The translations under genes were made by a program, and so were the position numbers. The notes beneath the pieces were generated by a model that made no database searches, was not told the DNA's origin, and was given only the letters and a program-made list of their open reading frames with translations. This document shows, piece by piece, positions 784 through 18,645 of a stretch of 64,000 nt of DNA (the first letter of the stretch is position 1; each line of letters begins with the position of its first letter). The DNA comes from Phytoamicus setariae (GTDB lineage Bacteria; Pseudomonadota; Alphaproteobacteria; Rhizobiales; Rhizobiaceae). Location: contig NZ_JAEQNC010000003.1 of NCBI RefSeq assembly GCF_016722925.1, positions 248,001-312,000 on the forward strand. Reading direction: 5' to 3'.

Positions 784-826
784 TTCCAATTACATGACAA
801 TCATGATTATATTGAATGAACATTCA
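784..826 (+). promoter_or_regulatory. Promoter with 14-bp palindromic operator, copy 1
   Basis: TGAATGAACATTCA at 813-826 is exactly the reverse complement of the site at 3989-4002; the only asymmetry is the two central bases. A possible -10 (TATATT, 808-813) directly abuts it and a weak -35 (TTCCAA, 784-789) lies upstream, so a protein bound here would cover the -10 and start of transcription. That geometry fits a repressor. The TetR-family regulator encoded at 2421-3125 is the natural candidate because its own operon carries the other copy. Operator identity is seen directly; the regulator assignment is inference. Confidence 0.65.
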
Positions 827-845
827 GCAAATATCGGAGCGAGAC

Positions 846-2060
846 ATGAACGAGCTGGTGCGTGACCTGAGCATCCCGAACGACTGGGACCGTCGCGGCC
901 TGCCCGGCTGGACCTATCATAGCGACGCGCTGTTCGAACTCGAAAAGCAGCATATATTCCGCGAACACTGGCAGATTGCCTGCCATATTTCCGACCTTCC
1001 CAATCCGGGCAACTACCTGACGCTCGATCTCGTCGGCGAGCGGGCGCTGATCCTGCGCGGCCAGGACGGAGAAATCCGCGCATTCCACAATATCTGCAAG
1101 CATCGCGGCTCGCGGCTGGTGGCCGACGACAAAGGCGCCTGCCGTAATGCGCTGGTCTGTCCCTTCCACGGCTGGGTCTACAATCTCGACGGCACCTTGC
1201 GTGGCCCCTCCCGCCCCAACACCTTCCCGCCGATGGACAAAGTGGAATTCGGCCTGACACGGCTCGAAACTGAAATCTGGATGGGGTTCGTGTTCATTCG
1301 CTTCGAAAAGGGCCCGCAGGGCTCGGTCGCCGAGTTGCTCAAGCCGTTCTCGGACGAACTCGGCCACTACCAGCCGGAGAGTGTCGTGCCGGCAAATGAC
1401 GCTATCTGGAGCCAGATTTCCGAAGTCAACTGGAAGTCCGTGCGCGATGTCGACAATGAGGGCTACCACGTCGCCATGGCCCATCCGGCGCTGCAGGATC
1501 TCTATGGCTCTACCTATTACGACGAGCCCTTCGTCAATGGCATCTGCCGGTCGTTTGCGACGTTCAACCCGCATGCCGGCCGCCGCTGGAGCGTGAGAAA
1601 CTACGTCAAGATCACCGAGGAGCCACAGCGTTTGCCCGAACCGCTCAAGAAGGCCTGGATTTATTACGGGATGTTTCCCAACGCCGTGATCGCGGTGACG
1701 CCGGAGACGGTGCAGTTCTATCAGGAATTTCCGCTCTCGAAGGGCCGGACTCTGCTGCGCGGCGCCGTCTATCGATATCCAGAGGAAACGCGCCGCCAAC
1801 GTATCGCCCGTTATCTCGCCATGCGTATCGATCGCGACACGCAGGCGGAAGACGTCCAGCTCACAATCTGGTCTAACGAGGCGATGGCTTCGAAAAACTT
1901 CTCGAGCTTCTACCTCTCCGACCTCGAATACGGCGTCCGCACGCACCATGACCATTTGCGCGCCGTGTTACCGGTCATGACGCTCGACAAGGCCCCACAT
2001 GAAAGCGAGATCACCGAGGTCAACCGCGCGATGCGCAAGGCAAACGGGCTTGCGGGCTGA
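846..2060 (+). CDS. Rieske 2Fe-2S oxygenase, large subunit
   Basis: A 404-residue ring-hydroxylating-dioxygenase-type alpha subunit. The Rieske cluster ligands are C84-x-H86 and C105-x2-H108 (CKHRG and CPFHGW), followed by the mononuclear iron region NEGYHVAMAHP with H208 and H213. Relatives include GbcA and stachydrine demethylase, which hydroxylate N-methyl groups of betaines, as well as true aromatic dioxygenases. I chose ATG 846 because GGAG at 836-839 is well spaced from it; an upstream in-frame ATG at 816 lies inside the palindromic operator. No beta subunit and no ferredoxin or reductase partner is encoded nearby, so electrons must come from elsewhere. Neighbouring FAD and GcvT-like genes suggest oxidative demethylation of an N-methyl compound, but the substrate is unknown. 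Confidence 0.88.
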   Translation: MNELVRDLSIPNDWDRRGLPGWTYHSDALFELEKQHIFREHWQIACHISDLPNPGNYLTLDLVGERALILRGQDGEIRAFHNICKHRGSRLVADDKGACRNALVCPFHGWVYNLDGTLRGPSRPNTFPPMDKVEFGLTRLETEIWMGFVFIRFEKGPQGSVAELLKPFSDELGHYQPESVVPANDAIWSQISEVNWKSVRDVDNEGYHVAMAHPALQDLYGSTYYDEPFVNGICRSFATFNPHAGRRWSVRNYVKITEEPQRLPEPLKKAWIYYGMFPNAVIAVTPETVQFYQEFPLSKGRTLLRGAVYRYPEETRRQRIARYLAMRIDRDTQAEDVQLTIWSNEAMASKNFSSFYLSDLEYGVRTHHDHLRAVLPVMTLDKAPHESEITEVNRAMRKANGLAG

Positions 2061-2063
2061 GGA

Positions 2064-2294
2064 TCAACCGAGCGCGGCATCCAGCAGCTGAAGAGCGCTG
2101 ATTACCGCAATCAGCAGAATCGTTGCCAACGCAACGGCCAGCAACAGTGAAAAGGGCGGCGGCCTGCGGATCTCGGCATGCCGGTCTCCCCCATGGCGCG
2201 GAAACTTCCGCTGGCCAAGGAATTTGCTGAATTTCGTCCGGAGGTGCGCCAGCCGCATCCCGGCCGGCTGAAATTGGATGACAGTCATGGTCAT
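2064..2294 (-). CDS. Possible small C-tail membrane protein
   Basis: A 76-residue frame starting MTMTVIQFQP, with a basic middle (lysines, arginines and histidines) and a single C-terminal hydrophobic segment of about 20 residues (PFSLLLAVALATILLIAV) followed by a short tail. That looks like a tail-anchored inner-membrane peptide. It ends three bases after the stop of the Rieske gene on the opposite strand and lies downstream of the TetR gene on the same strand. The ribosome binding site is weak and I know no family, so it could be a chance frame. If real, it might be co-transcribed with the methyltransferase and TetR genes. Confidence 0.35.
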   Translation of the reverse strand: MTMTVIQFQPAGMRLAHLRTKFSKFLGQRKFPRHGGDRHAEIRRPPPFSLLLAVALATILLIAVISALQLLDAALG

Positions 2295-2420
2295 GTATCG
2301 CTTCGTCTGTTGACGACGATCGGACACTAGACCCCTTGGCCATAATATTTCGATGGGAATGGCATCGGTCGGGCATAAGGAAATCATAAGGGGCCGGCAA
2401 GCGGGCCTCGATGCTCCGAG

Positions 2421-3125
2421 TTACAGCAGCCCGTTCGTGGAGAGATGCCGGGGGAATACCGCTGCGACATATTCGATGGCCGCCACCAGCGCTTTTTCGC
2501 GCGTCAGCCCGTCATTCATCATCAGCCGGAACCAGAGCCCTTCCAGCATTGAGCAGATGCCGAGCGCCATCGGCTCGGGCGCATAGTCATAGCCGCCTTC
2601 GGCTTTCAGCTCTGCGCAGAGGTCGACGAACGCATTCTGATAGTTAAGGTCCGTCGCCCCGCACAGCGCCTGGTATGTCGGGCGCGATTTTGCCTCGCCC
2701 CAGAAGGCGCACCATGCGGCAAGCTTACGCTTGGTGCAGATCTTGCGGTCGAAATCGGCATTGACCAGCGCCCACATCCGGCCCGCGGCAGATGGCTGGG
2801 CCTTCGCGAGCGCTGCATTCCAGTGACTGGCATATTCATCTGCCATATATTGCAACGTGGCGACGAGCAGCTTTTCCTTGCTTTCGAAATGGAAATTGAC
2901 GATGCCGCGCGACAGCTTGGCGCCATCGGCGACGTTGGCAAGCGTCGTATCGGAATAGCCGCGCTTGGCCAGCGAATCGATCGTCGCCTCAATCAACTGC
3001 TGCTGACGGGTTTCCTTCGACGCCTTGCGGCTCTTCTTGTCAGGTTCGACTGCCAGGGCAACATTCATGCCGATCGCCATTCCCATATCGGTCGGGCTGA
3101 TCGGTTTGTAGGCCATGTCAGACAC
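2421..3125 (-). CDS. TetR/BetI-type transcriptional regulator
   Basis: A 234-residue TetR-family protein. The helix-turn-helix lies around residues 45-90 (TTLANVADGAKLSRG followed by FHFESKEKLL), and the C-terminal ligand domain resembles BetI, the choline/betaine regulator, including WCAFWGEA and the late GLW segment. The N-terminus has about 35 extra basic residues before the HTH, so a later start is possible. Its first codons overlap the end of the methyltransferase gene by 8 bases, so the two are co-transcribed. It is the most likely ligand of the two identical palindromes at 813-826 and 3989-4002, one of which lies in front of its own operon, which would make it autoregulated. Inducer unknown. 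Confidence 0.85.
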   Translation of the reverse strand: MSDMAYKPISPTDMGMAIGMNVALAVEPDKKSRKASKETRQQQLIEATIDSLAKRGYSDTTLANVADGAKLSRGIVNFHFESKEKLLVATLQYMADEYASHWNAALAKAQPSAAGRMWALVNADFDRKICTKRKLAAWCAFWGEAKSRPTYQALCGATDLNYQNAFVDLCAELKAEGGYDYAPEPMALGICSMLEGLWFRLMMNDGLTREKALVAAIEYVAAVFPRHLSTNGLL

Positions 3126-3903
3126 CGGGTTTGATTGCTCTCAAGTGCGTAGGGCAATGCTCTCCGCTGTCAAGCACCTTTTGCATGGCAAGCCATGTAC
3201 GGATGTTCTTGTCAACAAACGCCTTGCCGGTCAGCGCCACTGCCTGGTCATATAGCTCGAATTGCAACCGTTTCAACTCGCGGGCCGCTTCCTCGCGATA
3301 CCAAGGATTGCGGCTCTGCGCCCTGACGTCGACGAACCCGGCGCGCTCCATGGCGTTGATATAACGATCGGGCGAGGCCATGCCGAAACTAAGCCCCTCG
3401 GCAGCAAGGTAGTCCTTCATGTCTGCACTCGGCTCGTCGTCATGAGCAATCAGCCAGTCGGATGCGGCAAACGTCCCACCCGGCTTGAGCACGCGGAAAA
3501 TGTCGGCAAACACGGCGTCCTTGTCGGGAATATGCACCATCGCATCCTTGGAAAAGACGACATCAAAACTTTCGTCTGCAAATGGCATCTGTCCCGGCGG
3601 CCCCTGGGTGAACTCCACCTGGCCTGCAAGCCCCGCCTTGGTGGCGCGCCGGCGCGCCTGTTCTATGACAGGCAACTCGACATCGAAGCCGACGATCTGG
3701 CTGGGCTTAAGCGTTCTGGCAATGAACAGCGCGATGCCGCCGGAGCCGCATCCGAGATCAAGCACGCGCCTGCCCCTGAGGTTTATGCCCGCCAGCACCC
3801 GCTCCACCTCGGCCGGGCCGCCGGGCGACAGGTAGCCGTCCCCCCAAAGCAGCTCAAGAAACCGCATATGGGTATCGTCATATTCCGGCTCGGCTTCCGT
3901 CAT
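3118..3903 (-). CDS. SAM-dependent N-methyltransferase, PEAMT-like
   Basis: A 261-residue class I methyltransferase. The SAM-binding motif VLDLGCGSGG is at about residues 47-56, an acidic motif II follows (GFDVELP), and the post-motif FSKDAMVHIPDKD and VLKPGG are typical of small-molecule methyltransferases. The N-terminal FLELLWGDGYLSPGG strongly resembles phosphoethanolamine/betaine-type N-methyltransferases. It is first in a leftward operon with the TetR gene (8-base overlap), divergent from the FAD-oxidoreductase operon, with the shared operator between them. A methyltransferase within a predicted demethylation regulon is unexpected; it could methylate an intermediate or make a signal. 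Family assignment is firm, substrate is inference. Confidence 0.82.
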   Translation of the reverse strand: MTEAEPEYDDTHMRFLELLWGDGYLSPGGPAEVERVLAGINLRGRRVLDLGCGSGGIALFIARTLKPSQIVGFDVELPVIEQARRRATKAGLAGQVEFTQGPPGQMPFADESFDVVFSKDAMVHIPDKDAVFADIFRVLKPGGTFAASDWLIAHDDEPSADMKDYLAAEGLSFGMASPDRYINAMERAGFVDVRAQSRNPWYREEAARELKRLQFELYDQAVALTGKAFVDKNIRTWLAMQKVLDSGEHCPTHLRAIKPGV

Positions 3904-3988
3904 GTCGATCGCCTCTGATTGGCACTTCGCCTACGCATTCGCGACATAGAAATATTAGCGTGATTTCAGATAATTGCAACATATTGAC

Positions 3989-4002
3989 TGAATGTTCATT
4001 CA
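3989..4002. promoter_or_regulatory. 14-bp palindromic operator, copy 2
   Basis: TGAATGTTCATTCA is the same site as at 813-826, read from the other strand. It sits in the divergent gap between the methyltransferase/TetR operon and the FAD-oxidoreductase operon. On the plus strand it follows a TTGACT (3984-3989) that could be a -35 box, so binding would block polymerase. An in-frame ATG at 3992 lies inside the operator and is therefore not the start of the downstream gene. Confidence 0.7.
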
Positions 4003-4063
4003 AAATAACTGGACAAGGTCCGACTTCCTATGCCAATTTTTAATCCAGAAAACGGGGAAGAGC

Positions 4064-5683
4064 ATGAAAAAGTACGACATCGTCATGATCGGAGGCGGCC
4101 ATAACGGGTTGGTTGCGGCCTGCTACCTGCAACGGGCTGGCCTGGATGTGGCCGTCGTGGAGAAGAACGCCTGGGTCGGCGGCGCGGCGACCAGTCGCAC
4201 ATTGTCATCAGGCGTCTATTACTCCAATTGCTCTTATGTCTGCTCGCTCTTTCGGCCGGAGATCATGCGCGATCTCGAATTGCCGAAGCATGGACTGCAG
4301 ATCGTTGCCTATGAAGGCGGCGCCGTCTTGACCCGCGAGGGTGGCTATCTCGCTTCCTATCGGGATCACAATCAGCATCGCCGCGAGTTCGCCCGCTACT
4401 CAGCACGCGATGCGGAAGCGTACGAGCGCTATGCCCGTGACGTGACGCGTCAGTGCCGCTTCATCCAGCCGCTGTTGATGCGCACCGCGCCCGATCCGTT
4501 CTCGTTCAAGCCGCGCGACATCAGCGAATTGATGTTCCTCGCCAAAAAGATGGGCGAGTTCAGCCCGGAGCAGATGGCACAGACGCTGCGCTTCTGGACC
4601 ATGTCGATCTCGGATTTCCTCGACGAATATTTCGAGACCGAAGTGATCAAGGCCTATCTGGCGATCTCCGGCATCATCGGCACGGCACTCGGCCCTATGT
4701 CTCCAGGCACGGCCTATGTCCTGCTGCATCACTACATGGGCGAAGTCGATGGCTCGGTCGGCGCGTGGGGCTATGCGCGCGGCGGCATGGGCGCGGTGAC
4801 GCAAGCGCTCGCCTCGTCGTTTCAGGCATCTGGCGGTACGATCCTCACCGACAGCGAGGTCAGCCAGGTCATCATCCGAAACGGCAAGGCCGAAGGCGTG
4901 GCGCTCGCCAATGGCGACGAGGTGCGCGGCAACATTGTCGTCTCCAATGCCGATGTGAAGCGCACGTTCCTCAAGCTTGTCGATGAGAAGGAACTGCCGG
5001 AAAAATTCGTTCACCGGGTAAAACACTTCAAGATGCGGGGATCGTCGGGCAAGGTGAACATCGCGCTCGACGGCCTGCCCGAATTCCCGAACTTGCCCCA
5101 CGGATCCACCTGCATCAAGGGCGACCTGCATTTCACCGATACCGTCGAGCGCATCGAGCGCGGATACGACGACTGGAAGGCCGGGCGCTGGTCTGCCGAC
5201 CCGTTCCTCGATGCGATGATCCCGACGACGCTCGACCCGACCATGGCCGAGCCGGGCAAGCACTTCATGAGCTGTTTCGTGCAATATTGTCCGCCGAAGG
5301 TCGAGGGCCGGGACTGGACGGATGCCGACCGCGACGCCTTCGCTGAAACCGTTGTCAGCCAGATCGCCGACTACTCGCCGGGGTTCCGCGACCGGATTCT
5401 CCACATGGAAGTGCGCACGCCGCGCGAGCTCGAAGCGGAAGTAGGCCTGACCGAAGGCAACATTTTTCAGGGCGAACTGACCTTCGACCAGCTGTTGTTC
5501 AACCGGCCGGTGCCCGGTTATGCGCAATATCGCAGCCCCGTCGAGGGCCTGTGGATGTGCGGCTCGTCAACCCATCCCGGCGGCGGAGTGATGGGTGCCC
5601 CGGGCCGCAACGCGGCAGCGGAAATCCTTCGCGATCTCAAGAAACCCAACAAGCACATGAGCCCCGCCCATGACATCCTTTGA
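4064..5683 (+). CDS. FAD-dependent oxidoreductase, PYROXD2/phytoene-desaturase-like (1)
   Basis: A 539-residue flavoprotein with the N-terminal dinucleotide fold VMIGGGHNGLVAA and following acidic residue (VVEKN), plus a C-terminal FAD motif GSSTHPGGGVMGAPGRNAA, the hallmark of the PYROXD2/CrtI-like group. These enzymes desaturate or oxidise C-C or C-N bonds. I chose ATG 4064 because GGGGAAGAG precedes it closely and the upstream ATG 3992 falls in the operator. It begins a four-gene operon and overlaps the next gene by 14 bases. Pairing with a second homologue and a GcvT-like protein suggests a multi-step oxidation ending in C1 transfer, similar in logic to dimethylglycine oxidase; the reaction is not known. 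Confidence 0.85.
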   Translation: MKKYDIVMIGGGHNGLVAACYLQRAGLDVAVVEKNAWVGGAATSRTLSSGVYYSNCSYVCSLFRPEIMRDLELPKHGLQIVAYEGGAVLTREGGYLASYRDHNQHRREFARYSARDAEAYERYARDVTRQCRFIQPLLMRTAPDPFSFKPRDISELMFLAKKMGEFSPEQMAQTLRFWTMSISDFLDEYFETEVIKAYLAISGIIGTALGPMSPGTAYVLLHHYMGEVDGSVGAWGYARGGMGAVTQALASSFQASGGTILTDSEVSQVIIRNGKAEGVALANGDEVRGNIVVSNADVKRTFLKLVDEKELPEKFVHRVKHFKMRGSSGKVNIALDGLPEFPNLPHGSTCIKGDLHFTDTVERIERGYDDWKAGRWSADPFLDAMIPTTLDPTMAEPGKHFMSCFVQYCPPKVEGRDWTDADRDAFAETVVSQIADYSPGFRDRILHMEVRTPRELEAEVGLTEGNIFQGELTFDQLLFNRPVPGYAQYRSPVEGLWMCGSSTHPGGGVMGAPGRNAAAEILRDLKKPNKHMSPAHDIL

Positions 5684-7193
5684 CGCAATCATCATCGGCG
5701 CCGGGCACAACGGGCTGGTCGCTGCCGGTTTCCTCGCCAAGGCGGGAAAAAAGATCCTCGTCCTGGAAGCTTCGGACAGGATCGGCGGCGCGATCAACCT
5801 TGCCCATATCGTCAACCGCCTGTCGCCCGCAGTGGTGTCTGGCCTCGCTATCGACCCAAACTCTTTAGCCGGCGAACTTTTACCAACCATCGTTCTTGAC
5901 CCCGACAAGGGGCCTGTCATTCTGCGCGGCGGCTACGGCGAAATCTTGGAAGGCGTCACCGCCGCCGAGGCGCAGGGATGGGCCGGCATGCGCAAGAAGT
6001 TGCTGATGCAAGCCGCCGTGCTGAAACGATTCCTCGCAAAGCGCCCGCCGCGACCGGGGGACATCGCGTTCAGCGATATGGTCGATCTCGGCCTCACGGG
6101 CCTCGGGCTTATCCGCAACGGCCGTGACGAGGCGCGCGATTTCGCCCGCATGGCGCTAATGAATGTCGCCGACATTGCCGACGAATACCTGACGGACGAC
6201 CGGCTAAAAGGCCTGATCGCCTTCGATGCGACGCTCGGCATCCATCTAGGCCCACGCTCGCCGACCTCACTGCTAGGGCTTTACTATCGCCTGACTGGCG
6301 AAGCCAATGGCAGCCCCGGCGGACAATTTCTTCCAAAGGGTGGCATGGCGGCAATTGCTTCCGCACTCGAAAAAGCCGCAGTGAAATATGGTGCGCAAAT
6401 CCGCCTCGATGCGCCGGTAGCAAGAATCCTCTCCGAACGCGGCAGGACGACCGGTGTGGTGCTCAATTCGGGCGAGGAGATATTGGCTCCTGTCATCGTT
6501 TCGGCGATCCACCCGGTCACGACGCTCAGGAAGCTCGCTGCGCCGGGCGAGATCGACACGCATCTGTCGACGAGCCTCAAGCATGTAAGAACCAAGGGCG
6601 ACGCTGCCAAACTGACCCTCACACTGGACAAGATCCCGGCTTTTACGGGGGTCAGTGCTGCTGATCTCAAGGGGCGACTGGTCATTGCACGCTCGATCGC
6701 CCATGTGGAGTCTGCCTTCAATCCGGCGAAATATGGCGCGTTCTCGCCGGATCCGGTGATGGAAATCACGCTGCCCAGCCTGCTCGATCCGTCGCTTGCA
6801 CCCTCGGGTGGCGCAACACTCTCGGCCATCGTCCAATATGCCCCCTATGATCTCAGGGAGGGCTGGGCAACCGGCAAGCCAAAATTCCTGGCCGCGATCA
6901 TGGATGTGCTGGAGCGTTACGCGCCGGGCATCTCCGCCTCGGTCACGTCAAGCGAATTGCTTGTGCCGCCGGATATCGAAGCGCGGTACAATATGCCGGG
7001 TGGGCACTGGCACCATGGCGAATTGCAGGTCGACCAGATGCTGCTCAACCGTCCGACCTTTGCCGTTTCGGGCTACGACACACCGCTCGCCGGCCTCTAT
7101 CTCGCCAGCGCCGGCAGCCACCCCGGCGGCGGCATATCAGGCCTGCCGGGCATGAACGCGGCCAAGCACGTTCTTTCGAGGAGACCAGCATGA
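5670..7193 (+). CDS. FAD-dependent oxidoreductase, PYROXD2/phytoene-desaturase-like (2)
   Basis: A 507-residue homologue of the gene just upstream. It has an intact FAD fold at the N-terminus (IIIGAGHNGLVAAGFLAKAG, acidic VLEAS) and the C-terminal AGSHPGGGISGLPGMNAA motif. Its start lies within the preceding gene (14-base overlap) and its stop overlaps the GcvT-like start by four bases, so all three are probably translated by coupling. It is about 30 residues shorter than its partner and diverged in the middle, where substrate binding is expected. Two such enzymes in a row could form a heteromer or perform successive oxidations. Function beyond FAD-dependent oxidation is unknown. Confidence 0.85.
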   Translation: MTSFDAIIIGAGHNGLVAAGFLAKAGKKILVLEASDRIGGAINLAHIVNRLSPAVVSGLAIDPNSLAGELLPTIVLDPDKGPVILRGGYGEILEGVTAAEAQGWAGMRKKLLMQAAVLKRFLAKRPPRPGDIAFSDMVDLGLTGLGLIRNGRDEARDFARMALMNVADIADEYLTDDRLKGLIAFDATLGIHLGPRSPTSLLGLYYRLTGEANGSPGGQFLPKGGMAAIASALEKAAVKYGAQIRLDAPVARILSERGRTTGVVLNSGEEILAPVIVSAIHPVTTLRKLAAPGEIDTHLSTSLKHVRTKGDAAKLTLTLDKIPAFTGVSAADLKGRLVIARSIAHVESAFNPAKYGAFSPDPVMEITLPSLLDPSLAPSGGATLSAIVQYAPYDLREGWATGKPKFLAAIMDVLERYAPGISASVTSSELLVPPDIEARYNMPGGHWHHGELQVDQMLLNRPTFAVSGYDTPLAGLYLASAGSHPGGGISGLPGMNAAKHVLSRRPA

Positions 7194-8422
7194 ACCAGAT
7201 CCCTGCCCTCTCCCGCAATGCCCGTGCAATCGCCGCCGGCCATGTGCTGACGCCGCTTCTCGGCACGCCCTTCTTCACCCGGCTCGAAGCGCTCAATACC
7301 AACAATGACTGGTATGCCTGGTCAGGTTACAAGGCGCCGCACACGCTCTCGGACGAAGAGTTGGAGTATTTCGCTATCCGTTCGACAGCGGCTTTGTTCG
7401 ACATCTCGCCGATGACAAAGTACCGCATATCGGGTCCGGACGCGGTGGCGTTCTGCAATCGTCTGACTGTCCGCGACGTCCGCAAGCTGGGCGTCAACCG
7501 GGTTCACTACACCGCTTGGTGCGACGACCATGGACACGTGCTGGACGATGGCACGTTGTTCCGGCTTGGTCAGGACGAGTTTCGCCTTTGCTCGCAGGAA
7601 CGTCACCTGCCGTGGCTGCTCGACAGCGCCGACGGCTTTGACGTGTCGATCGCTGACGAGAGCGCCGAAATTGCCGGTCTCGCTCTGCAGGGACCGGTCT
7701 CCTATGCCGTGCTGCGCGATGCCGGTTTCCAAGGCGTCGAAAACCTCAAACCGTTCCAGCTTGGGAGCTTCCCACATGAGGGAGGCAGCGTCACTATATC
7801 TCGTACCGGATTCACCGGCGATCTCGGCTACGAACTGTTCTGCCCGCGCGAACTGGCGCTGAGCCTCTGGGACCGGCTCTGGGCCGTCGCCGAGAAGAAC
7901 CGTATGCGGGCCATCGGCTATGCCGCTCTCAATCATGCCCGTATCGAAGCCGGTTTCATCGTCGCCAATGCCGATTTCGTCACCTCCGAGACGGCGCTGC
8001 GTGAAGACCGCTTGCGCCTGCCCGACGAGATCGGCTTGGACTGGCTGGTCGATCTGGAGAAGCCGAACTTCAATGGCCGCACAGCCATTGTCAAAGCGCG
8101 CGAGAAGAAAACGCTGAAGCACATCCTTGTGGGGCTGGAAATCGAGGGCAATGTAGCGGGCCCGCTGTCGCTGATCTACCACAAGAAGAAACGTGAGGTG
8201 GGCATTATCACCGCCTCCGCCTGGTCACCGATCCTGAAGAAGAACATTGCCATCGCCAGCCTCGAAAGGCCGTTTGGCGAGAAGATCCTGAATGATCTCT
8301 GGGTAGAAATCTATGCGCTCCGCGAGCTCAACTACCAAAAGCTGATGAAGCCGGTAAAGATCGCGCCGAGGCCGTTCCTCAAGCTCGACCGGCGCGGCGC
8401 AACTCCGCCGGGATTAACATGA
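7190..8422 (+). CDS. GcvT-like aminomethyltransferase/demethylase
   Basis: A 410-residue protein of the glycine-cleavage T-protein fold, also found in DmdA and in the C-terminal half of dimethylglycine and sarcosine dehydrogenases. The stretch GHVLDDGTLFRL matches the conserved region carrying the catalytic Asp of T-proteins, SRTGFTGDLGYELF matches the folate-domain signature, and the C-terminal GCV_T_C barrel is present. It would accept a methyl or methylene group onto tetrahydrofolate. It overlaps both neighbours by four bases (ATGA). It is not part of a glycine cleavage operon (no gcvH or gcvP here), so a specialised demethylase role fed by the two FAD enzymes is likely. Confidence 0.82.
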   Translation: MNQIPALSRNARAIAAGHVLTPLLGTPFFTRLEALNTNNDWYAWSGYKAPHTLSDEELEYFAIRSTAALFDISPMTKYRISGPDAVAFCNRLTVRDVRKLGVNRVHYTAWCDDHGHVLDDGTLFRLGQDEFRLCSQERHLPWLLDSADGFDVSIADESAEIAGLALQGPVSYAVLRDAGFQGVENLKPFQLGSFPHEGGSVTISRTGFTGDLGYELFCPRELALSLWDRLWAVAEKNRMRAIGYAALNHARIEAGFIVANADFVTSETALREDRLRLPDEIGLDWLVDLEKPNFNGRTAIVKAREKKTLKHILVGLEIEGNVAGPLSLIYHKKKREVGIITASAWSPILKKNIAIASLERPFGEKILNDLWVEIYALRELNYQKLMKPVKIAPRPFLKLDRRGATPPGLT

Positions 8423-8670
8423 TGGATGAGGAGGCGCGCCAGAACTGGCAGTTGATCCTCACGCCGACGGGCGTGGAATGGTCAGGCCGGACGCGCTATG
8501 CGGCAGCGATGTATTTCTACAAGGCGGGCGAAATGAGCGCCGAGGTGCTGGAGATTTACCGCATCTGTTCGCGCCTCGATAACGAGGACGCGATGGATGC
8601 GCTCAAGGCCTATCACATGGGGCGGGAGTGGATCGAAAAGGTGGAGAGGATGAGGACGGATTTAAGTTAG
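8419..8670 (+). CDS. Small conserved-looking protein of unknown function
   Basis: An 83-residue soluble protein that overlaps the GcvT-like gene by four bases and ends the operon. It has aromatic clusters (NWQLIL, RYAAAMYFYKAG), then a helical, charged C-terminal half. No cysteines, signal peptide or membrane segment are visible. I do not recognise a family. Its tight coupling suggests it is a subunit or chaperone of one of the flavoproteins or of the GcvT-like enzyme. A second ATG three bases on (8422) is an alternative start. Confidence 0.7.
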   Translation: MMDEEARQNWQLILTPTGVEWSGRTRYAAAMYFYKAGEMSAEVLEIYRICSRLDNEDAMDALKAYHMGREWIEKVERMRTDLS

Positions 8671-8848: not shown

Positions 8849-9634
8849 CTACCGCCCCTTCCACACCGGATCGCGCTTTTCCGCGAATGCGCGCGCACCC
8901 TCGAGATTGTCGTCGCTGCCATAGAGAACGTCGACGGTCTTGAGCTGGCGGCGGGTGATCTTGTTCATCGTGTCCTGGAATTTGTTGCCTTCGGCTTCGC
9001 GCACCACTTCCTTGATTGCGGCATAGACGAGCGGCGGCCCACTTTCGAGCAGGCGGGCGAGTTCCCAGGCGCGTTCCATCAGCTTGTCGGCGGGGAGGAT
9101 CTCGTTGACGAAGCCCCAGCGATGAGCTTCCGACGCGTCGAGCCAGCGGCCGGTCAGCAGCATGTCCATGGCGATGTGGTAGGGAATGCGCTTCGGCAAT
9201 TTGATCGAGGCGGCATCGGCCACCGTGCCTGAACGAATTTCGGGCAGTGCGAAAGTCGCGTGCTCGGCGGCAAGGATCATGTCGGTCGACAGCGCGATTT
9301 CCAGTCCGCCGCCGCAGCAGATGCCGTTGATCGCCGCAATGACCGGCTTGTTGAGATCGCGTAGCTCCTGCATGCCGCCAAAACCGCCGACACCGTAATC
9401 GCCGTCGACCGCATCGCCGGCAGCAGCGGCCTTCAGGTCCCAGCCGGGGCAGAAGAATTTCGGCCCTGAACCGGTGATGATCGCCACGCGCAGGCTGTCG
9501 TCATCGCGGAAATCCTGGAAGATCTTGCCCATGATCCGGCTGGTGACCAGATCGATCGCATTGGCCTTCGGCCGATCGATGGTCACTTCGAGAATGCCGC
9601 CCTCGCGGCGGGTCTTGATCGGTTCGTCGGTCAT
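8849..9634 (-). CDS. caiD: Crotonobetainyl-CoA hydratase CaiD-like
   Basis: A 261-residue crotonase, the same length as enterobacterial CaiD. The N-terminal DRPKANAID, the oxyanion region GWDLKAAA, the NKPVIAA(I)NG segment and the C-terminal AFAEKRDPVWKGR closely match CaiD. It would hydrate crotonobetainyl-CoA to L-carnitinyl-CoA in the cytoplasm. It is last in the leftward carnitine operon, downstream of a CoA ligase and an acyl-CoA dehydrogenase that could supply crotonobetainyl-CoA from gamma-butyrobetaine. Position 101-ish GICCGGG carries two cysteines where CaiD has other residues. Family is firm; the physiological direction is inference from the operon. Confidence 0.88.
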   Translation of the reverse strand: MTDEPIKTRREGGILEVTIDRPKANAIDLVTSRIMGKIFQDFRDDDSLRVAIITGSGPKFFCPGWDLKAAAAGDAVDGDYGVGGFGGMQELRDLNKPVIAAINGICCGGGLEIALSTDMILAAEHATFALPEIRSGTVADAASIKLPKRIPYHIAMDMLLTGRWLDASEAHRWGFVNEILPADKLMERAWELARLLESGPPLVYAAIKEVVREAEGNKFQDTMNKITRRQLKTVDVLYGSDDNLEGARAFAEKRDPVWKGR

Positions 9635-9666
9635 ATCGTTTCTCTCGGTTCGGTTGCTTAGGATTG

Positions 9667-9784
9667 CCCCTCATCCGGCCTGTCGGCCACCTTCTCCCCG
9701 TTGACACGGGGAGAAGGCATTCGCGGCAAACTCGGAGCAGTTTCCCTCTCCCCGCCCTTACGGGGAGAGGGTTAGGGTGAGGGG
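9667..9784. repeat. RIME-like palindromic intergenic repeat B
   Basis: About 118 bases with the two-palindrome structure: GGCCTGTCGGCC, then CTTCTCCCCGttgacaCGGGGAGAAG, then CCCTCTCCCCGccctta CGGGGAGAGGG. It fills the gap between caiD and the CoA ligase gene in the same transcription unit and is nearly the same length and sequence as repeat C. Confidence 0.8.
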
Positions 9785-9787
9785 CGA

Positions 9788-11854
9788 TTACATTCTCATC
9801 CGCACCAGCGCATCTGCCGCCACGACGCCTTGCCCTTCGGGCAGCACCATCAGCGGATTGATGTCAAGTTCCTCGATATCAGCAGCATTGGCGATGACGA
9901 AATCGGCGGCAGCCGAGACCGCATCGATGAGTGCGGCCATGTCGCCCTTCGCCTGACCGCGATAGCCGGTCAGAAGCTTGGTGATCTTCAATCCGTCGAT
10001 CGCTTTGCAAATATCGTCTCTGGTCGTCGGCAGCGTGATGACAGCGGAATCGTCCATCAGCTCGACGAGGATACCGCCGGCTCCGATGGTCAGAACGGGC
10101 CCCGCAACCGGATCGCGAAGCGCGCCGACGATCAGTTCGGCGACCGGCCTGGCCGCCATTTTCTCGACCAGGAAGCCACGAGCGACACCCGCCATTGCTT
10201 TGGCCGCAGCGATGACGTCAGCCTCGGATGCTAGGTTGAGCTTGACCGCACCGGCCTCGGTCTTGTGAGCGACGCCCGAACCCTTGAGGGCCACGGGAAA
10301 GCCGATCTCGGCAGCAGCCTTTGCCGCCTCCTCCGGCGTGGCGACCAGCATACCCTTGGGAACCGGCAGACCGAAAGGTTTCACCACTTGCTTGGATTCA
10401 GACTCGCTGAGTGTGACTGCCTCGCCTTCGGAGGCTTCACCTTTCAGCAGCGGCAGCGGCACGGGTGCTGCCCACGCCTGGTGGATGGCATGCGCGATCT
10501 CGACGGCGACAAGCGCTTCGTCGATCCCCATGAATGGTATCACCCCGTTTTCCATCAGCATCTGCGCCACCGCCTCAGGCATGTTCTCGCCCATCGAGGC
10601 GACGACCCCGGCATTGGCGCCGGTTGCCTTGTGGGCCGCGATCATCGCGTTGACCGTGGTCATCCAGTCGGCCGGGTCGCAGCGGTCGATGCGGGGAAAG
10701 TCGAGTACGACAAGGTTCAGCGCATAGTCGCCCTGCATCATCGTCGAGAAGGCAGCCGTCAGCTTTTCACCATTGCCCCAGACAAAGGTGTGATAGTCGA
10801 GCGGGTTGGAGATCGTCACCATCTGGCCGAGCGTTTCGCGCAGCGGCTGGTATTGTTCCGGCTTCAGGTCACGAAAGCTGACCTTGCGGCCGACGCCGGC
10901 ATCGGCAATCAGCGAAGCCTCGCCACCCGAGCAGCTCATCGAGGAGACCTCGTTGCTGACAAGCGTGCCAGCGACGTGCAGCAGCTTCAGCGTTTCCAGC
11001 ATCTCGGGCAATGTGTCCACCTGGCCGATTCCCAGTCGCGCGAGCACGGCTGACGAGACCTTGTGATTGCCGGCAAGCGAGGCGGTGTGTGAAACAGTGG
11101 CCTTCTGCGCCGCTTCGGATTTTCCGACTTTCAGGGCGATTACAGGCTTCTTCAGCTCTCGTGCCCGCTGGCCGAGAAGTTCCAGCGTTTCGAGATCGTC
11201 AAAACCTTCGATATGCAGGCCGACGGCGGTGACACGCGGGTCTTCCAGCGCTGCAACGGCAAGCGCCGACAGACCTGTCTGCGCCTGGTTGCCCGCTGTC
11301 ATGAGATAGGCAAGCGGCAGGCCGCGTGCCTGCATGGAAACGTTGCAGGCGATATTGGAGGATTGGGTCAGCACTGCCACGCCGCGTTCGGTGCGGATCA
11401 TGCCATGCTGGTCCGGCCACAACAGGGCGCCATCGAGCATGTTGATGAAGCCGTAACAATTCGGGCCAACCACCGCCATGTCGCCTGCAGCCTCGACCAA
11501 GGCGGCCTGCAACTCATCACCGTCGGGCAGCTCCTTGATGGCCTCGGAGAAGCCCGAAGCGTAGCAGATCGCACCGCCCGCGCCGCGCTCGGAGAGTTCG
11601 CGCATGATGTCGATCGTCAGCGTTCGGTTGACGCCGACAAAAGCCGCATCGGGCGCGGCCGGAAGATCGGCGACCGAACGATAGCATTTGTAGCCGTGAA
11701 CCTCGTCCTTGGTCGGATGGACCGGCCAAATCTCACCGGTATAGCCCATCTTGCGGCACTGCTCGACGACCCGGCCGGCTTCCTTGCCGCCGAAGACTGC
11801 AATGGATTTCGGACGGATAAGCCGGCCAAGGGAACTAGGGGAAAGTTTTTTCAT
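9788..11854 (-). CDS. ADP-forming acyl-CoA synthetase (carnitine/betaine CoA ligase)
   Basis: A 688-residue fused NDP-forming acyl-CoA synthetase: CoA-binding Rossmann domain at the N-terminus (SIAVFGG..AGRVVEQCRKMGY), succinyl-CoA-ligase-like domains with the probable phosphorylated His in SHTASLAG, and a C-terminal ATP-grasp domain starting near GLPVPKGMLV. It would charge gamma-butyrobetaine, crotonobetaine or carnitine with CoA. Enterobacteria use AMP-forming CaiC and transferase CaiB instead, so this is a non-homologous solution. It sits between acyl-CoA dehydrogenase and caiD genes, with a palindromic repeat on each side. Substrate is inferred from context only. Confidence 0.82.
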   Translation of the reverse strand: MKKLSPSSLGRLIRPKSIAVFGGKEAGRVVEQCRKMGYTGEIWPVHPTKDEVHGYKCYRSVADLPAAPDAAFVGVNRTLTIDIMRELSERGAGGAICYASGFSEAIKELPDGDELQAALVEAAGDMAVVGPNCYGFINMLDGALLWPDQHGMIRTERGVAVLTQSSNIACNVSMQARGLPLAYLMTAGNQAQTGLSALAVAALEDPRVTAVGLHIEGFDDLETLELLGQRARELKKPVIALKVGKSEAAQKATVSHTASLAGNHKVSSAVLARLGIGQVDTLPEMLETLKLLHVAGTLVSNEVSSMSCSGGEASLIADAGVGRKVSFRDLKPEQYQPLRETLGQMVTISNPLDYHTFVWGNGEKLTAAFSTMMQGDYALNLVVLDFPRIDRCDPADWMTTVNAMIAAHKATGANAGVVASMGENMPEAVAQMLMENGVIPFMGIDEALVAVEIAHAIHQAWAAPVPLPLLKGEASEGEAVTLSESESKQVVKPFGLPVPKGMLVATPEEAAKAAAEIGFPVALKGSGVAHKTEAGAVKLNLASEADVIAAAKAMAGVARGFLVEKMAARPVAELIVGALRDPVAGPVLTIGAGGILVELMDDSAVITLPTTRDDICKAIDGLKITKLLTGYRGQAKGDMAALIDAVSAAADFVIANAADIEELDINPLMVLPEGQGVVAADALVRMRM

Positions 11855-11880
11855 GAAAGGTTCGATCTCATCTTTGTTTG

Positions 11881-11998
11881 CCCCTCATCTGGCCTGTCGG
11901 CCACCTTCGCCCCGTCATGACGGGGAGAAGGGACACGCAGCACGTTCGGAGCGGATTCCCTCTCCCCGTTCTTACGGGGAGAGGGCTCGGGTGAGCGG
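11881..11998. repeat. RIME-like palindromic intergenic repeat C
   Basis: About 118 bases, closely matching repeat B: GGCCTGTCGGCC, then CGCCCCGTCATGACGGGGAG, then CCCTCTCCCCGttcttaCGGGGAGAGGG. It lies between the acyl-CoA dehydrogenase and CoA ligase genes, which share a strand. Confidence 0.8.
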
Positions 11999-12010
11999 CA
12001 TTCTAAAGTC

Positions 12011-13171
12011 TCACGCCCCCAACGGGCGCAACAGATCGCGGCTGATGATGTGGCGCTGGATTTCGCTCGTGCCGTCCCAGATCCGCTCGACGCGAGCATC
12101 GCGCCAGAAACGGGCGAGCGGCAGGTCGTCCATCAGGCCCATGCCGCCATAGATCTGGATCGCCTCGTCGGTGACCCGCGCAAGCATTTCCGACGCGTAG
12201 AGCTTGGCGGAGGCGATTTCACGGTTGGCAGGGAGCTTCTGGTCGAGCCGCCATGCGCCCGCCAGCGTGAGCCAGTCGGCAGCATCGATCTCGGTGATCA
12301 TGTCGGCAAGCTTGAAGGAAACGCCCTGGTTGGCGCCGATCGGCTTGCCGAACTGCTTGCGCTCTGCGGCGTAAGGCAGGGCCATCTCGAACACGCGGCG
12401 GGCGCGGCCGACGCAGTTGGCGGCCACGGTCAGACGGGTGCCGTAGAGCCAGTCGTTGGCCAGATCAAAACCCTTGTGCACTTCGCCGAGGATCTGCGCC
12501 GACGACAGCCGGCAATCATCGAAATTCAGGATGCAGTTCTTGTAGCCGCGATGCGAGACGGAATCATAGCCGTCGCGGATTTCAAAACCCGGCGTGCCGC
12601 GATCGACGAGGAAGCAGGTGATCAGCTTCTTCGGGCCCTTCGGCGTCTGCTCTTCGCCGGTGGCGATAAAGACGATGACGAAATCGGCGATGTTGGCATG
12701 CGAAATGAAGTGCTTGGTGCCGTTGACGATCCAGTCCGAGCCATCCGGCTTGGCAAAGCACTTCATGCCGCGCACGTCGGAGCCGGCGCCCGGCTCGGTC
12801 ATGGCCAGCGCATCGAACTTTTCGCCCTTGGTGGCCGGGATCAGGTAGCGTTCGCGCTGTTCGGCGTTGCAGCCCATCAGGATGCCGGACGGACGGCCGA
12901 AGAACACTGTCAGCGCCATCGAGCCCCGGCCGAGTTCGCGCTCGACCAGCGTGAAAGTCAGGTGGTCGAGGCCGGCGCCGCCGACATCTTCGGGCATGTT
13001 GCATCCGAAGAAGCCGAGCTCCTTGACCTTGCGGGCGATTTCCTGGCCCATCTCGGGCGGCACGAAGCCCTGCTTTTCGACTTCGTCCTCGAGCGGATGA
13101 ATTTCGGTTTCCACGAAACTCCGCACGGTGTTGACGATCATGTCCTGTTCTTCGGTCAATCCGAAATTCAT
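12011..13171 (-). CDS. Acyl-CoA dehydrogenase, probable gamma-butyrobetainyl-CoA type
   Basis: A 386-residue acyl-CoA dehydrogenase with the flavin motifs AMTEPGAGSDVRGMK and, near the C-terminus, IYGGMGLMDDLPLARFWRDA. It would oxidise gamma-butyrobetainyl-CoA to crotonobetainyl-CoA with FAD. In the position where medium-chain enzymes have the catalytic Glu (YEGT), this protein has Asp (IWDGTSEIQR); several bacterial relatives share that. I start it at ATG 13171, which is preceded by AGGGAGGA; an in-frame ATG 24 bases upstream lacks that support. It is third in the carnitine operon. No electron-transfer flavoprotein genes are in the window. Confidence 0.83.
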   Translation of the reverse strand: MNFGLTEEQDMIVNTVRSFVETEIHPLEDEVEKQGFVPPEMGQEIARKVKELGFFGCNMPEDVGGAGLDHLTFTLVERELGRGSMALTVFFGRPSGILMGCNAEQRERYLIPATKGEKFDALAMTEPGAGSDVRGMKCFAKPDGSDWIVNGTKHFISHANIADFVIVFIATGEEQTPKGPKKLITCFLVDRGTPGFEIRDGYDSVSHRGYKNCILNFDDCRLSSAQILGEVHKGFDLANDWLYGTRLTVAANCVGRARRVFEMALPYAAERKQFGKPIGANQGVSFKLADMITEIDAADWLTLAGAWRLDQKLPANREIASAKLYASEMLARVTDEAIQIYGGMGLMDDLPLARFWRDARVERIWDGTSEIQRHIISRDLLRPLGA

Positions 13172-13216
13172 GGAGTGGTTCCTCCCTAGATCCAAGTTTC
13201 AGGGCGACGCGAAGGC

Positions 13217-13383
13217 CCCCTCATCCGGCGCTTTGCGCCACCTTCTCCCCGAGGGGGAGAAGAGGGTGATTGTTGCACCCTCTCAATTCATTCATGGCCT
13301 GGAATTTCAGGCAAGGCAGATAGAGCGAACTCCCTCTTCTCCCCACCGGGGCGAAGGTGGCGCGAATGCGCCGGATGAGGGGG
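13217..13383. repeat. RIME-like palindromic intergenic repeat D (long form)
   Basis: A 167-base inverted structure: it opens CCCCTCATCCGGCGCTTTGC and closes with the complementary GCGCCGGATGAGGGGG, with inner arms CTTCTCCCCGAGGGGGAGAAG and CTTCTCCCCACCGGGGCGAAG. The outer arms pair over the whole element, unlike repeats B and C. It lies between lcdH and the acyl-CoA dehydrogenase gene. Confidence 0.78.
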
Positions 13384-13399
13384 CGACGCTTGCGCTAAC

Positions 13400-14890: not shown

Positions 14891-14913
14891 GGTTGTTCTA
14901 CCTAGGTTTAAGA

Positions 14914-15066
14914 CCCCGCCCCAAACCCCTCCCCACAAGGGGGAGGGGCTTAACTTGCCGCCCCATATCAATTTAAATCGACATTTCAGCTTGCAGTGCG
15001 CTCAGTTTTTGGCGCGGGCAGTTGATGCAGATTAAGCCCTCCCCCTTGTGGGGAGGGTTTGGGCGG
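14914..15066. repeat. Inverted pair of GC-rich palindromic repeats E
   Basis: Two copies of a roughly 35-base palindromic unit (AACCCCTCCCCACAAGGGGG and its complement CCCTTGTGGGGAGGGTTTGG) at 14914-14953 and 15032-15066, in opposite orientation, about 80 bases apart. This is a different family from repeats A-D. The pair fills the gap between the BKACE and lcdH genes and could form a long hairpin in the transcript. Confidence 0.78.
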
Positions 15067-15077
15067 AGTGTTTCTTA

Positions 15078-17136: not shown

Positions 17137-17181
17137 TTGACTGAACGCACAATCAATATAAATTCGATAAATCAATATAAA
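17137..17181 (+). promoter_or_regulatory. Operator-like site and 12-bp direct repeat
   Basis: TTGACTGAACGCACAATCAA (17137-17156) matches the region around the 3989-4002 operator at 16 of 21 positions, including the TTGACTGAA start. It overlaps AATCAATATAAA at 17151-17162, repeated exactly at 17170-17181 (19-base period). Direct repeats of this spacing are typical of AraC-family binding sites, so the neighbouring GlxA-type protein may act here. The downstream gene is the aminotransferase. Confidence 0.4.
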
Positions 17182-17232: not shown

Positions 17233-18645
17233 ATGGCTGCAAAACGGGAAGAGATGGAATTCGCCGGCAACACCCCAAACGCTGTCGAAGCGATTGCTGA
17301 AAAACATCTCGTGCAGCCTTGGCCAGTGTCCGAAACGATCGGCGCCGAAGCGCGCGGCTTCATCGAAAGCGGCGACGGCATCTACGTCACCGATGCCGAG
17401 GGCCGCCGCTTGATCGATGGCCCCGCGGGCATGTGGTGCGTCAATGTCGGCCATCGCAACAAGGAACTGTCGCAGGTCATGTACGACCAGGCGATGGCGC
17501 TGTCCTACAATTCGCCGTGGTACACGACCAACGAGCCTTCGGCGCTGCTTGCAGAACGGCTGGCCGGCCATGCGCCGGAGGGCGTGGGACACGTGTTCTA
17601 CACAACCGGCGGCTCTTCTGCAGTCGAGACGGCGTTGCGCTTCATGCAGTTCTACAACAATGTGCGTGGACGCCCGGAAAAGAAGCTGATCGTTTCGCGC
17701 GAAGGCGCTTACCACGGCTCGACCTATCTTGCCGCCTCGATGAACGGCCGGCCGCGCGATCATGACTGGATGGACAGCGCCAAAGAGCAAGTGATCAAGC
17801 TCTCCTGCCCCAATCCCTTCCGCCGCCCCAAGGGCATGACGCTGGAGGCCTACACCGATTTCCTCATCGAGGAATTCCGCGCGACGATCGAAAAGGTCGG
17901 CGCCGACCGGATCGGTGCCTTCATCGGTGAGCCGGTCATGGCCTCGGGTGGCGTCATCGTGCCGCCGCCGGGCTATCTGCCGCGCATGCGCGCACTTTGC
18001 GCCGAGCACGAAATCCTGTTCATCGCCGACGAGGTGGTGACCGCGTTCGGCCGGCTTGGCCACGTCTTCGCCTCCAAGGAGGTGTTCGGCATCGAGCCCG
18101 ACATGATCACCTTTGCCAAGGGCGTAACCTCGGGTTACTTCCCACTCGGCGGGGTGATGATCCGTTCGAAACTATTCGAGGATCTGCGTCAGTCCAACCA
18201 CAACGACGCGATGTTTGCCCACGGCCTGACCTATTCCAGCCATCCGATCGGCTGCGCGGTCGCGCTCAAGAACCTCGACATCCTCGAAGACGGGCTGCTG
18301 GCGGAGACCCGCGCCATCTCGGATCATTTCCAGTCGCGACTGAAGGCGCTGGAAGAGCTGCCACTGGTGGGCGAAGTGCGCGGACTTGGGCTTATGGCGG
18401 GCATCGAATGCGTTGCCGACCATGTCAGCAACAATCCGCTGACGCTCGATCTCGAAGTGGGCAAACGCATTGACAGGCATTGCCAGGCGCTCGGCCTGCT
18501 GGTGCGGCCACTGATCAACATGTGCGTGATGAGCCCGCCGCTGACCATCAACCGCGATCAGATCGATACGATGGCGGAAATCCTGCACAAGAGCATCGCG
18601 TTGACGCAGGATGAGTTGGTGCGTGAAGGGTTGTGGAAGGGTTGA
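17233..18645 (+). CDS. Class III (omega) aminotransferase, PLP-dependent
   Basis: A 470-residue class III aminotransferase. Visible features are the PLP-phosphate region TTGGSSAVETALR, the AYHGST motif, the Asp that contacts the pyridine nitrogen in FIADEVVTAFGR, and the PLP lysine in TFAKGVTSGYFPLGG. Relatives transfer amino groups from omega-amino acids or diamines (for example putrescine) to pyruvate. The start has a strong AGGAGGG seven bases upstream. It follows the carnitine regulator on the same strand with its own promoter region, so a link to quaternary-amine metabolism is possible but not shown. Exact substrate cannot be told by eye. Confidence 0.87.
   Translation: MAAKREEMEFAGNTPNAVEAIAEKHLVQPWPVSETIGAEARGFIESGDGIYVTDAEGRRLIDGPAGMWCVNVGHRNKELSQVMYDQAMALSYNSPWYTTNEPSALLAERLAGHAPEGVGHVFYTTGGSSAVETALRFMQFYNNVRGRPEKKLIVSREGAYHGSTYLAASMNGRPRDHDWMDSAKEQVIKLSCPNPFRRPKGMTLEAYTDFLIEEFRATIEKVGADRIGAFIGEPVMASGGVIVPPPGYLPRMRALCAEHEILFIADEVVTAFGRLGHVFASKEVFGIEPDMITFAKGVTSGYFPLGGVMIRSKLFEDLRQSNHNDAMFAHGLTYSSHPIGCAVALKNLDILEDGLLAETRAISDHFQSRLKALEELPLVGEVRGLGLMAGIECVADHVSNNPLTLDLEVGKRIDRHCQALGLLVRPLINMCVMSPPLTINRDQIDTMAEILHKSIALTQDELVREGLWKG

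Follow-up and report, generated by a model that had tools for sequence, protein, structure and literature searches.

A palindrome-linked regulon of Phytoamicus setariae and its candidate role in the catabolism of an N-methylated amine

Gene set and shared operators

The stretch analysed here, which we call the window, covers 64,000 nucleotides of Phytoamicus setariae (contig NZ_JAEQNC010000003.1, positions 248,001 to 312,000, or G000:C23:248001-312000 in our coordinates, where G000 is the window's own genome, a 5.6-Mb assembly). Close to its start, an earlier note made from the sequence had described seven genes as an N-methyl catabolic regulon, and all seven were recovered where it had placed them: a Rieske oxygenase (RO), a TetR-type regulator (TetR), an S-adenosylmethionine (SAM)-dependent methyltransferase (MT), two flavin adenine dinucleotide (FAD) proteins (FAD1 and FAD2), a GcvT-like protein and an 83-amino acid protein (p83), together called the cassette below (Table 1). 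The list was incomplete, however, as it overlooked a class-III aminotransferase gene (AT14) at position 17233. Adjacent coding sequences overlap, by 8 bp between TetR and MT, by 14 bp between FAD1 and FAD2, and by 4 bp both between FAD2 and GcvT and between GcvT and p83. RO and FAD1 likely start at ATG 846 and ATG 4064 rather than at ATG 816 and ATG 3992, because the latter two codons fall inside operators; the alignments agree with this choice. The 'PEAMT-like' label once given to MT holds for a SAM methyltransferase but is loose beyond that: its best NCBIfam match is arsenite methyltransferase (97 bits), and sarcosine/dimethylglycine N-methyltransferase reaches 67 bits, both far below the cut-offs.

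Table 1. Genes and operators of the regulon in the window
Feature	Position	Strand	Family evidence and remarks
Operator TGAATGAACATTCA before RO	813..826		Exact copy; top-scoring window site with the motif from relatives outside the genus
Rieske oxygenase RO	846..2060	+	PF00355 and PF00848; nearest solved sequences CntA and Stc2-type
TetR/BetI-like regulator	2421..3125	-	TetR_N and BetI-type TetR_C_6; in 78/80 loci
SAM-dependent methyltransferase MT, accessory member	3118..3903	-	Methyltransf_31/25/11; in 66/80 loci
Operator TGAATGAACATTCA, common to the divergent TetR-MT and FAD1 units	3989..4002	-	Exact copy
FAD1, CrtO/CrtI-family flavoprotein, likely catalytic amine dehydrogenase subunit	4064..5683	+	306 bits to NF045689
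FAD2, FAD1-paralogous partner	5670..7193	+	194 bits to NF045689; without 12-residue loop by the GG motif
GcvT-like folate protein, stand-alone	7190..8422	+	GCV_T (188 bits) and GCV_T_C; 239 bits to TMAO demethylase
p83, 83-amino acid five-helix protein	8419..8670	+	In 80/80 loci; pLDDT 95
Degenerate operator TGAACGCACAATCA	17142..17155		78 nt before AT14; third-best window site, 19.8
Class-III aminotransferase AT14, probable regulon member past the carnitine genes	17233..18645	+	Operator before 33/33 relatives; 685 bits to NF005447 (cut-off 618)

The gene set is a regulon linked by a palindrome. Three transcription units with identical operators had been described previously; the 14-bp palindromes are indeed identical, but there are two sites only, one of which serves a divergent pair. 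These two exact copies, on the forward strand before RO and on the reverse strand between MT and FAD1, are the only ones in the assembly. The core of the palindrome, TGAAN6TTCA, is found in the 300 nt that precede FAD1 at 87 of 89 related loci (L154 repeating L036), against 342 of 20000 random 300-nt stretches drawn from the same related loci (1.7%), and is therefore not there by chance. Against the same background it precedes AT14 in 33/33 loci, PotB in 33/37 and RO in 11/14; genes were omitted from the count if their N-terminus aligned poorly or if fewer than 200 nt lay upstream. A Pot-type importer and an omega-aminotransferase thus stand under one operator in relatives, the arrangement by which we tested for polyamine catabolism. 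In a separate count, 77 of 80 loci had the palindrome no further than 400 nt from FAD1, the exceptions being L073, L086 and L103, two of which (L073 and L103) begin inside or after the place of FAD1. It was found upstream of none of 82 binding protein genes and none of 55 amine oxidase genes in relatives.

Scanning the window with a 22-mer matrix derived from 42 sites in relatives of other genera gave its three best scores at positions 809 (33.8), 3985 (31.0) and 17138 (19.8); the best of 20 shuffles reached 14.4 and the best of 20 first-order Markov resamples 18.6. Elsewhere in the genome (G000:C1), a site in front of a flavin amine oxidase gene reaches 28.9 with this matrix. TetR is the probable ligand of these operators. 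It shares the BetI-type C-terminal domain of BetI, but scores only 115 bits against the BetI model (TIGR03384, cut-off 201), and the operators differ: PMC12442346 gives the Ruegeria pomeroyi BetI1 palindrome as ATTGACG*CGTCAAT, unlike TGAAN6TTCA.

The cassette recurs among soil and marine bacteria, with finds in Rhizobium, Shinella, Ensifer, Mesorhizobium and Rhodobacterales. We compared 80 loci, the best 80 of 172 confirmed, chosen by GcvT similarity, so that GcvT is present by construction and close relatives are over-represented; each stretch extends at most 10 kb from GcvT, and presence was called by set identity thresholds. FAD1 is present in 77 of these loci and FAD2 in 79 (see Table 1 for the other core genes). 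Their neighbours include a polyamine-type binding protein (77 loci), PotA (73), PotC (65), PotB (42) and a flavin amine oxidase (54). Among sampled genomes, with the own genome counted in each case, 17 of 249 from the order have a GcvT match at E 1e-70, and FAD1 matches are present in 9 of 385 from the class (E 1e-200) and 11 of 398 from the phylum (E 1e-180), all 11 within the window's own class. In Fuscovulum ytuae (L190), a single run of genes encodes an aminotransferase, FAD1, FAD2, GcvT, two Rieske enzymes, an ATP-binding cassette (ABC) importer (polyamine binding protein, ATPase and two permeases), a cupin, an amidohydrolase and a methyltransferase. Rhizobium sp. SL42 and Shinella zoogloeoides have the core plus AT14; Parasedimentitalea (L191) has the core, AT14 at 49% identity and Rieske enzymes other than RO orthologs. 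The earlier note had suggested a comparison of gene neighbourhoods as a check on its reading. This comparison makes a polyamine-type ABC importer and a class-III aminotransferase the usual partners of the cassette, whereas carnitine dehydrogenase is rarely linked.

Flavoproteins, GcvT, p83 and the Rieske oxygenase

FAD1 and FAD2 have their best NCBIfam kinship with CrtO/CrtI. In Pfam, FAD1 matches DAO (56.8 bits, best stretch residues 5-115) on a level with Amino_oxidase (55.6 bits, residues 15-522). The two paralogs are not equally constrained: 188 of 539 positions of FAD1 are at least 98% identical over 115 rows, against 53 of 507 positions of FAD2 over 124 rows, in alignments that may hold one gene twice. 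Moreover, 12 residues that follow the GG motif of FAD2 are missing from the window and from L027, with a similar loss in L190 and in G481 (the same gene in rows L172 and L194), that is in 5 of 124 rows and about three separate lineages. The AlphaFold model of FAD1 (predicted local distance difference test, pLDDT, 85.5, with two inner stretches below 50) has a carotenoid desaturase as its best fold match, followed by nicotine oxidoreductase, monoamine oxidases and putrescine oxidase. The stronger constraint on FAD1, the loop loss in FAD2 and these fold matches suggest that FAD1 is the catalyst and FAD2 a partner. Elsewhere in the genome, a FAD1 paralog (39% identity; G000:C36:103048-106130, L134:6049-9131) directly follows another class-III aminotransferase-like gene, which suggests that this flavoprotein family partners aminotransferases in other settings too.

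In GcvT, D120, E215 and R251 are found in 109/109 rows and D119 in 108; these residues align with conserved acids of solved T-proteins that have a folate role. Its nearest family is the GcvT part of trimethylamine N-oxide (TMAO) demethylase (Tdm), whose C-terminal domain it matches best, but only that domain aligns. Dimethylglycine and sarcosine dehydrogenases and heterotetrameric sarcosine oxidase likewise couple FAD oxidation to a GcvT folate domain, and the cassette GcvT matches those structures. A GcvT domain with folate-site residues is thus shared with these dehydrogenases, but their DAO-fold oxidizing partner was not found: the cassette flavoprotein is a pair of CrtI/CrtO-family paralogs with a desaturase/amine-oxidase fold, accompanied by a separate GcvT and an 83-amino acid partner. 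The contrast that the earlier note drew between this arrangement and the dimethylglycine/sarcosine dehydrogenases is therefore borne out.

No Pfam or NCBIfam family matches p83 at E 0.001, and a search of PDB and BFVD with its predicted fold gave no match under E 1. Larger proteins in L143 and L190 (L143:17628-18470 and L190:22647-23498), whose C-terminal part is a DMSP_lyase cupin, align with it in their N-terminal part, at 28-33% identity and with 13 columns invariant. Therefore p83 is a domain that also exists as a cupin fusion in related clusters.

An RO ortholog (E 1e-100) is found in 26 of 36 cassette genomes, the own genome being included in this and all other counts over 36 genomes; in 21 of these its gene is no more than 21 kb from FAD1, and in 5 it is on another contig. 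An RO alignment was restricted to at least 50% identity and 85% coverage; it has 18 rows, one of which (L116) is the window itself, leaving 16 other loci. RO shares several features with the group V Rieske enzymes CntA, GbcA and Stc2, its closest solved sequences being CntA and Stc2-type enzymes. The Rieske ligands of the CxH...CxxH motif (C84, H86, C105 and H108), the His ligands H208 and H213 and E205, the bridging Glu of CntA and Stc2 (PMC7948474), are all conserved in the RO alignment. It differs from them in two respects. According to PMC7948474, position 203 (CntA numbering) is aromatic (Tyr/Phe) in group Va and Asn in group Vb, whereas RO has Asp; the stretch RDVDNEGYHV is identical in the window and in 16/16 other loci. 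RO also lacks the Cys pair (Cys-x-x-Cys) of characterized quaternary-amine Rieske enzymes, a pair which, according to PMC10952381, occurs in some group V enzymes. Against the GbcA model (NF058607), RO scores 137 bits over residues 28-228 only, the cut-off being 670. By kinship RO thus appears to be a quaternary-amine Rieske enzyme, yet it fits the signature of neither published clade. The Asp at the cation site hints at a positively charged substrate.

Proposed pathway and candidate substrates

On balance we favour, if only slightly, a regulon for the import, stepwise demethylation and transamination of a cationic N-methylated amine, for which a quaternary ammonium compound is the likeliest candidate. 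What the analysis establishes is the families of the genes and their arrangement, the operators they have in common and the conservation of active-site residues; each catalytic step, the complex, the action of TetR on the operator and the substrate are inferred from these. In most relatives, a Pot-type ABC importer would bring the compound in. The substrate would then act as inducer, with the BetI-like TetR letting go of the operator that precedes the Rieske, importer, aminotransferase and FAD1 genes. RO would take the first methyl group off the quaternary nitrogen, and FAD1 would dehydrogenate the remaining N-methyl groups to the iminium, FAD2 serving as a structural or electron-transfer partner. 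Each carbon would be trapped as 5,10-methylene-tetrahydrofolate by the separate GcvT, so that FAD1, FAD2 and GcvT might form a multi-subunit complex, the counterpart of single-chain dimethylglycine dehydrogenase. The primary amine produced would be deaminated by the class-III aminotransferase or by a flavin amine oxidase. Some lineages would pass the aldehyde on to an aldehyde dehydrogenase; such enzymes are linked to the cassette in L140, L194 and L202.

A bolder version of this proposal, to which we give somewhat less than an even chance, holds that FAD1, FAD2, GcvT and p83 form a heteromeric complex, a new class of folate-coupled N-demethylase, acting behind a Rieske oxygenase from a third clade of quaternary-amine enzymes, which would bind its cation through Asp203, in an undescribed pathway of Alphaproteobacteria for complete demethylation plus deamination. 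Of its two CrtI/MAO-fold paralogs, one would be catalytic, whereas some lineages would be dispensing with the active-site loop of the other. Methylated amines are a major means by which plants, algae and bacteria exchange nitrogen and one-carbon units. If the proposal is true, one conserved regulon degrades a methylated amine for which no bacterial route has been assigned, and a flavoprotein family named mainly for carotenoid enzymes acquires an amine-demethylating branch; the operator, the regulator and the binding protein allow direct substrate testing. Searches of open-licence PMC papers on beta-alanine betaine, trimethyllysine, butyrobetaine, PYROXD2 and split GcvT listed none whose title or opening abstract lines describe this gene set, and our claim that it is absent from print extends to the searches made here.

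Several observations weigh against a demethylation regulon of this kind. At E 1e-100, 10 of the 36 cassette genomes have no RO ortholog, and the linked Rieske enzymes of L191, L194 and L198 have only 32-33% identity to RO or to the Rhodobacterales version of it. The residue at position 203 and the missing Cys pair set RO apart from the characterized enzymes, and no Rieske reductase was noticed when the clusters were read by eye. MT has no obvious place in a demethylation pathway, and no characterized close relative was found for the enzymes of the set. The importer binding protein of the relatives has no close match in the own genome (best 36%), and for this reason we claim no importer ortholog there. 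By score alone the AT14 site of the window is weak, as it barely exceeds resampled sequence (19.8 versus 18.6); we credit it because of its place, 78 nt before AT14. As to our preference among substrates, it is a point against it that G916 and G013 (both carnitine-linked) and G271 lack any GbcA-like match above 150 bits; the cassette may have a betaine role in these genomes, although other betaine demethylation systems exist (PMC12478193).

Is the substrate glycine betaine, produced by the adjacent carnitine operon and demethylated by a non-canonical route? This was the proposal of the earlier note; its N-methyl catabolic regulon gains support from gene families and operators, but we find this particular substrate improbable, because betaine genes lie upstream of the window, the carnitine link is infrequent and an importer and an aminotransferase are the usual partners. 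Of 36 genomes searched, 32 have a carnitine dehydrogenase, and in only 5 of these, the own genome among them, is it no more than 30 kb from FAD1. These five genomes (G000, G254, G255, G916 and G013) nevertheless represent three lineages, and acyl-CoA genes of carnitine type adjoin the cassette in G271; both linkages favour the idea, as do the three genomes with no GbcA-like match. The own genome, however, has betaine-type genes next door, among them a GbcA-like Rieske gene upstream of the window on the same contig (267 bits), and a stronger GbcA-like gene at G000:C34 (516 bits). GbcA-like matches of at least 400 bits occur in 19 of 36 cassette genomes, although neither these 36 genomes nor any of 14 controls pass the curated cut-off of NF058607. 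The importer and the class-III aminotransferase, which are not obviously needed for glycine betaine, would be left unexplained. We also regard pyridinium betaines as less likely than the two substrate classes considered below; searches of open-licence PMC papers on homarine and trigonelline listed no degradation-operon paper fitting these genes, a result that speaks neither for nor against such a substrate.

Two substrate classes jointly lead, each as a tentative candidate. One comprises omega-amino-acid betaines, such as gamma-butyrobetaine, beta-alanine betaine or delta-valerobetaine, full demethylation of which would give gamma-aminobutyrate (GABA), beta-alanine or 5-aminovalerate for the class-III aminotransferase. 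AT14 of the own genome shares 78% identity with its regulon counterpart in L037, whose nearest PDB entries are an unnamed aminotransferase (3i5t) and then entries named 4-aminobutyrate transaminase. Carnitine/butyrobetaine-type genes are adjacent at times, and some clusters contain cupins similar to dimethylsulfoniopropionate (DMSP) lyase, DMSP being the sulfur analogue of beta-alanine betaine. The polyamine type of the importer argues the other way. The L190 binding protein (316 bits to PotF, cut-off 636) aligns with polyamine-binding proteins and keeps their conserved W-x-D-Y, SGD and FD positions, which contact the amine in those proteins; these acidic positions favour a free cationic amine as ligand, and hence the other possible class, polyamine-like dications. 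Trimethyllysine or an N-methylated diamine would enter through the Pot-type importer and, at the last stage, be treated as a diamine, on which aminotransferase, amine oxidase and aldehyde dehydrogenase would act. The Asp at the Rieske substrate position and the amine oxidase and aldehyde dehydrogenases of the clusters fit such a substrate, but the binding protein of L037 (Rhizobiales) has lost the W-x-D-Y, SGD and FD positions, and the ligand is itself a prediction.

A different doubt concerns the flavoproteins, which might be C-C or C-N desaturases of an amine rather than N-demethylases, GcvT acting in another one-carbon or aminomethyl transfer. Their nearest families and folds are indeed carotenoid desaturases and ketolases, not DAO-fold demethylases. 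We consider this unlikely all the same, given the tight overlap with a GcvT gene whose product keeps its acids, the presence of a Rieske partner in most genomes, and the flavin amine oxidases that come next in the fold list.

Neighbouring genes

Neighbours of the cassette outside the family searches were named from reading their translations. Between AT14 and the rest of the regulon lies a carnitine-type operon (window positions 8849-15980, assigned by eye) with genes for enoyl-CoA hydratase, ADP-type CoA ligase, acyl-CoA dehydrogenase, carnitine dehydrogenase with a thioesterase-like C-terminal part, and BKACE. Upstream of the window, a quaternary-amine island (G000:C23:235017-246623; L132 and L205), mostly read by eye, holds the GbcA-like Rieske gene and an isocitrate-lyase-family gene, together with four genes assigned by eye, which encode an MttB-like methyltransferase, two proteins resembling FAD+GcvT dehydrogenases and one resembling choline dehydrogenase.

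Dipeptidase, sulfatase, esterase and AcrAB families, also named by eye, occur near the cassette; we set them aside as members because they vary between clades. Old yellow enzyme-type NADH:flavin oxidoreductases (TIGR03997-like) adjoin the cassette at L193:16639-18675 and L191:18325-20364, and are possibly further demethylases.

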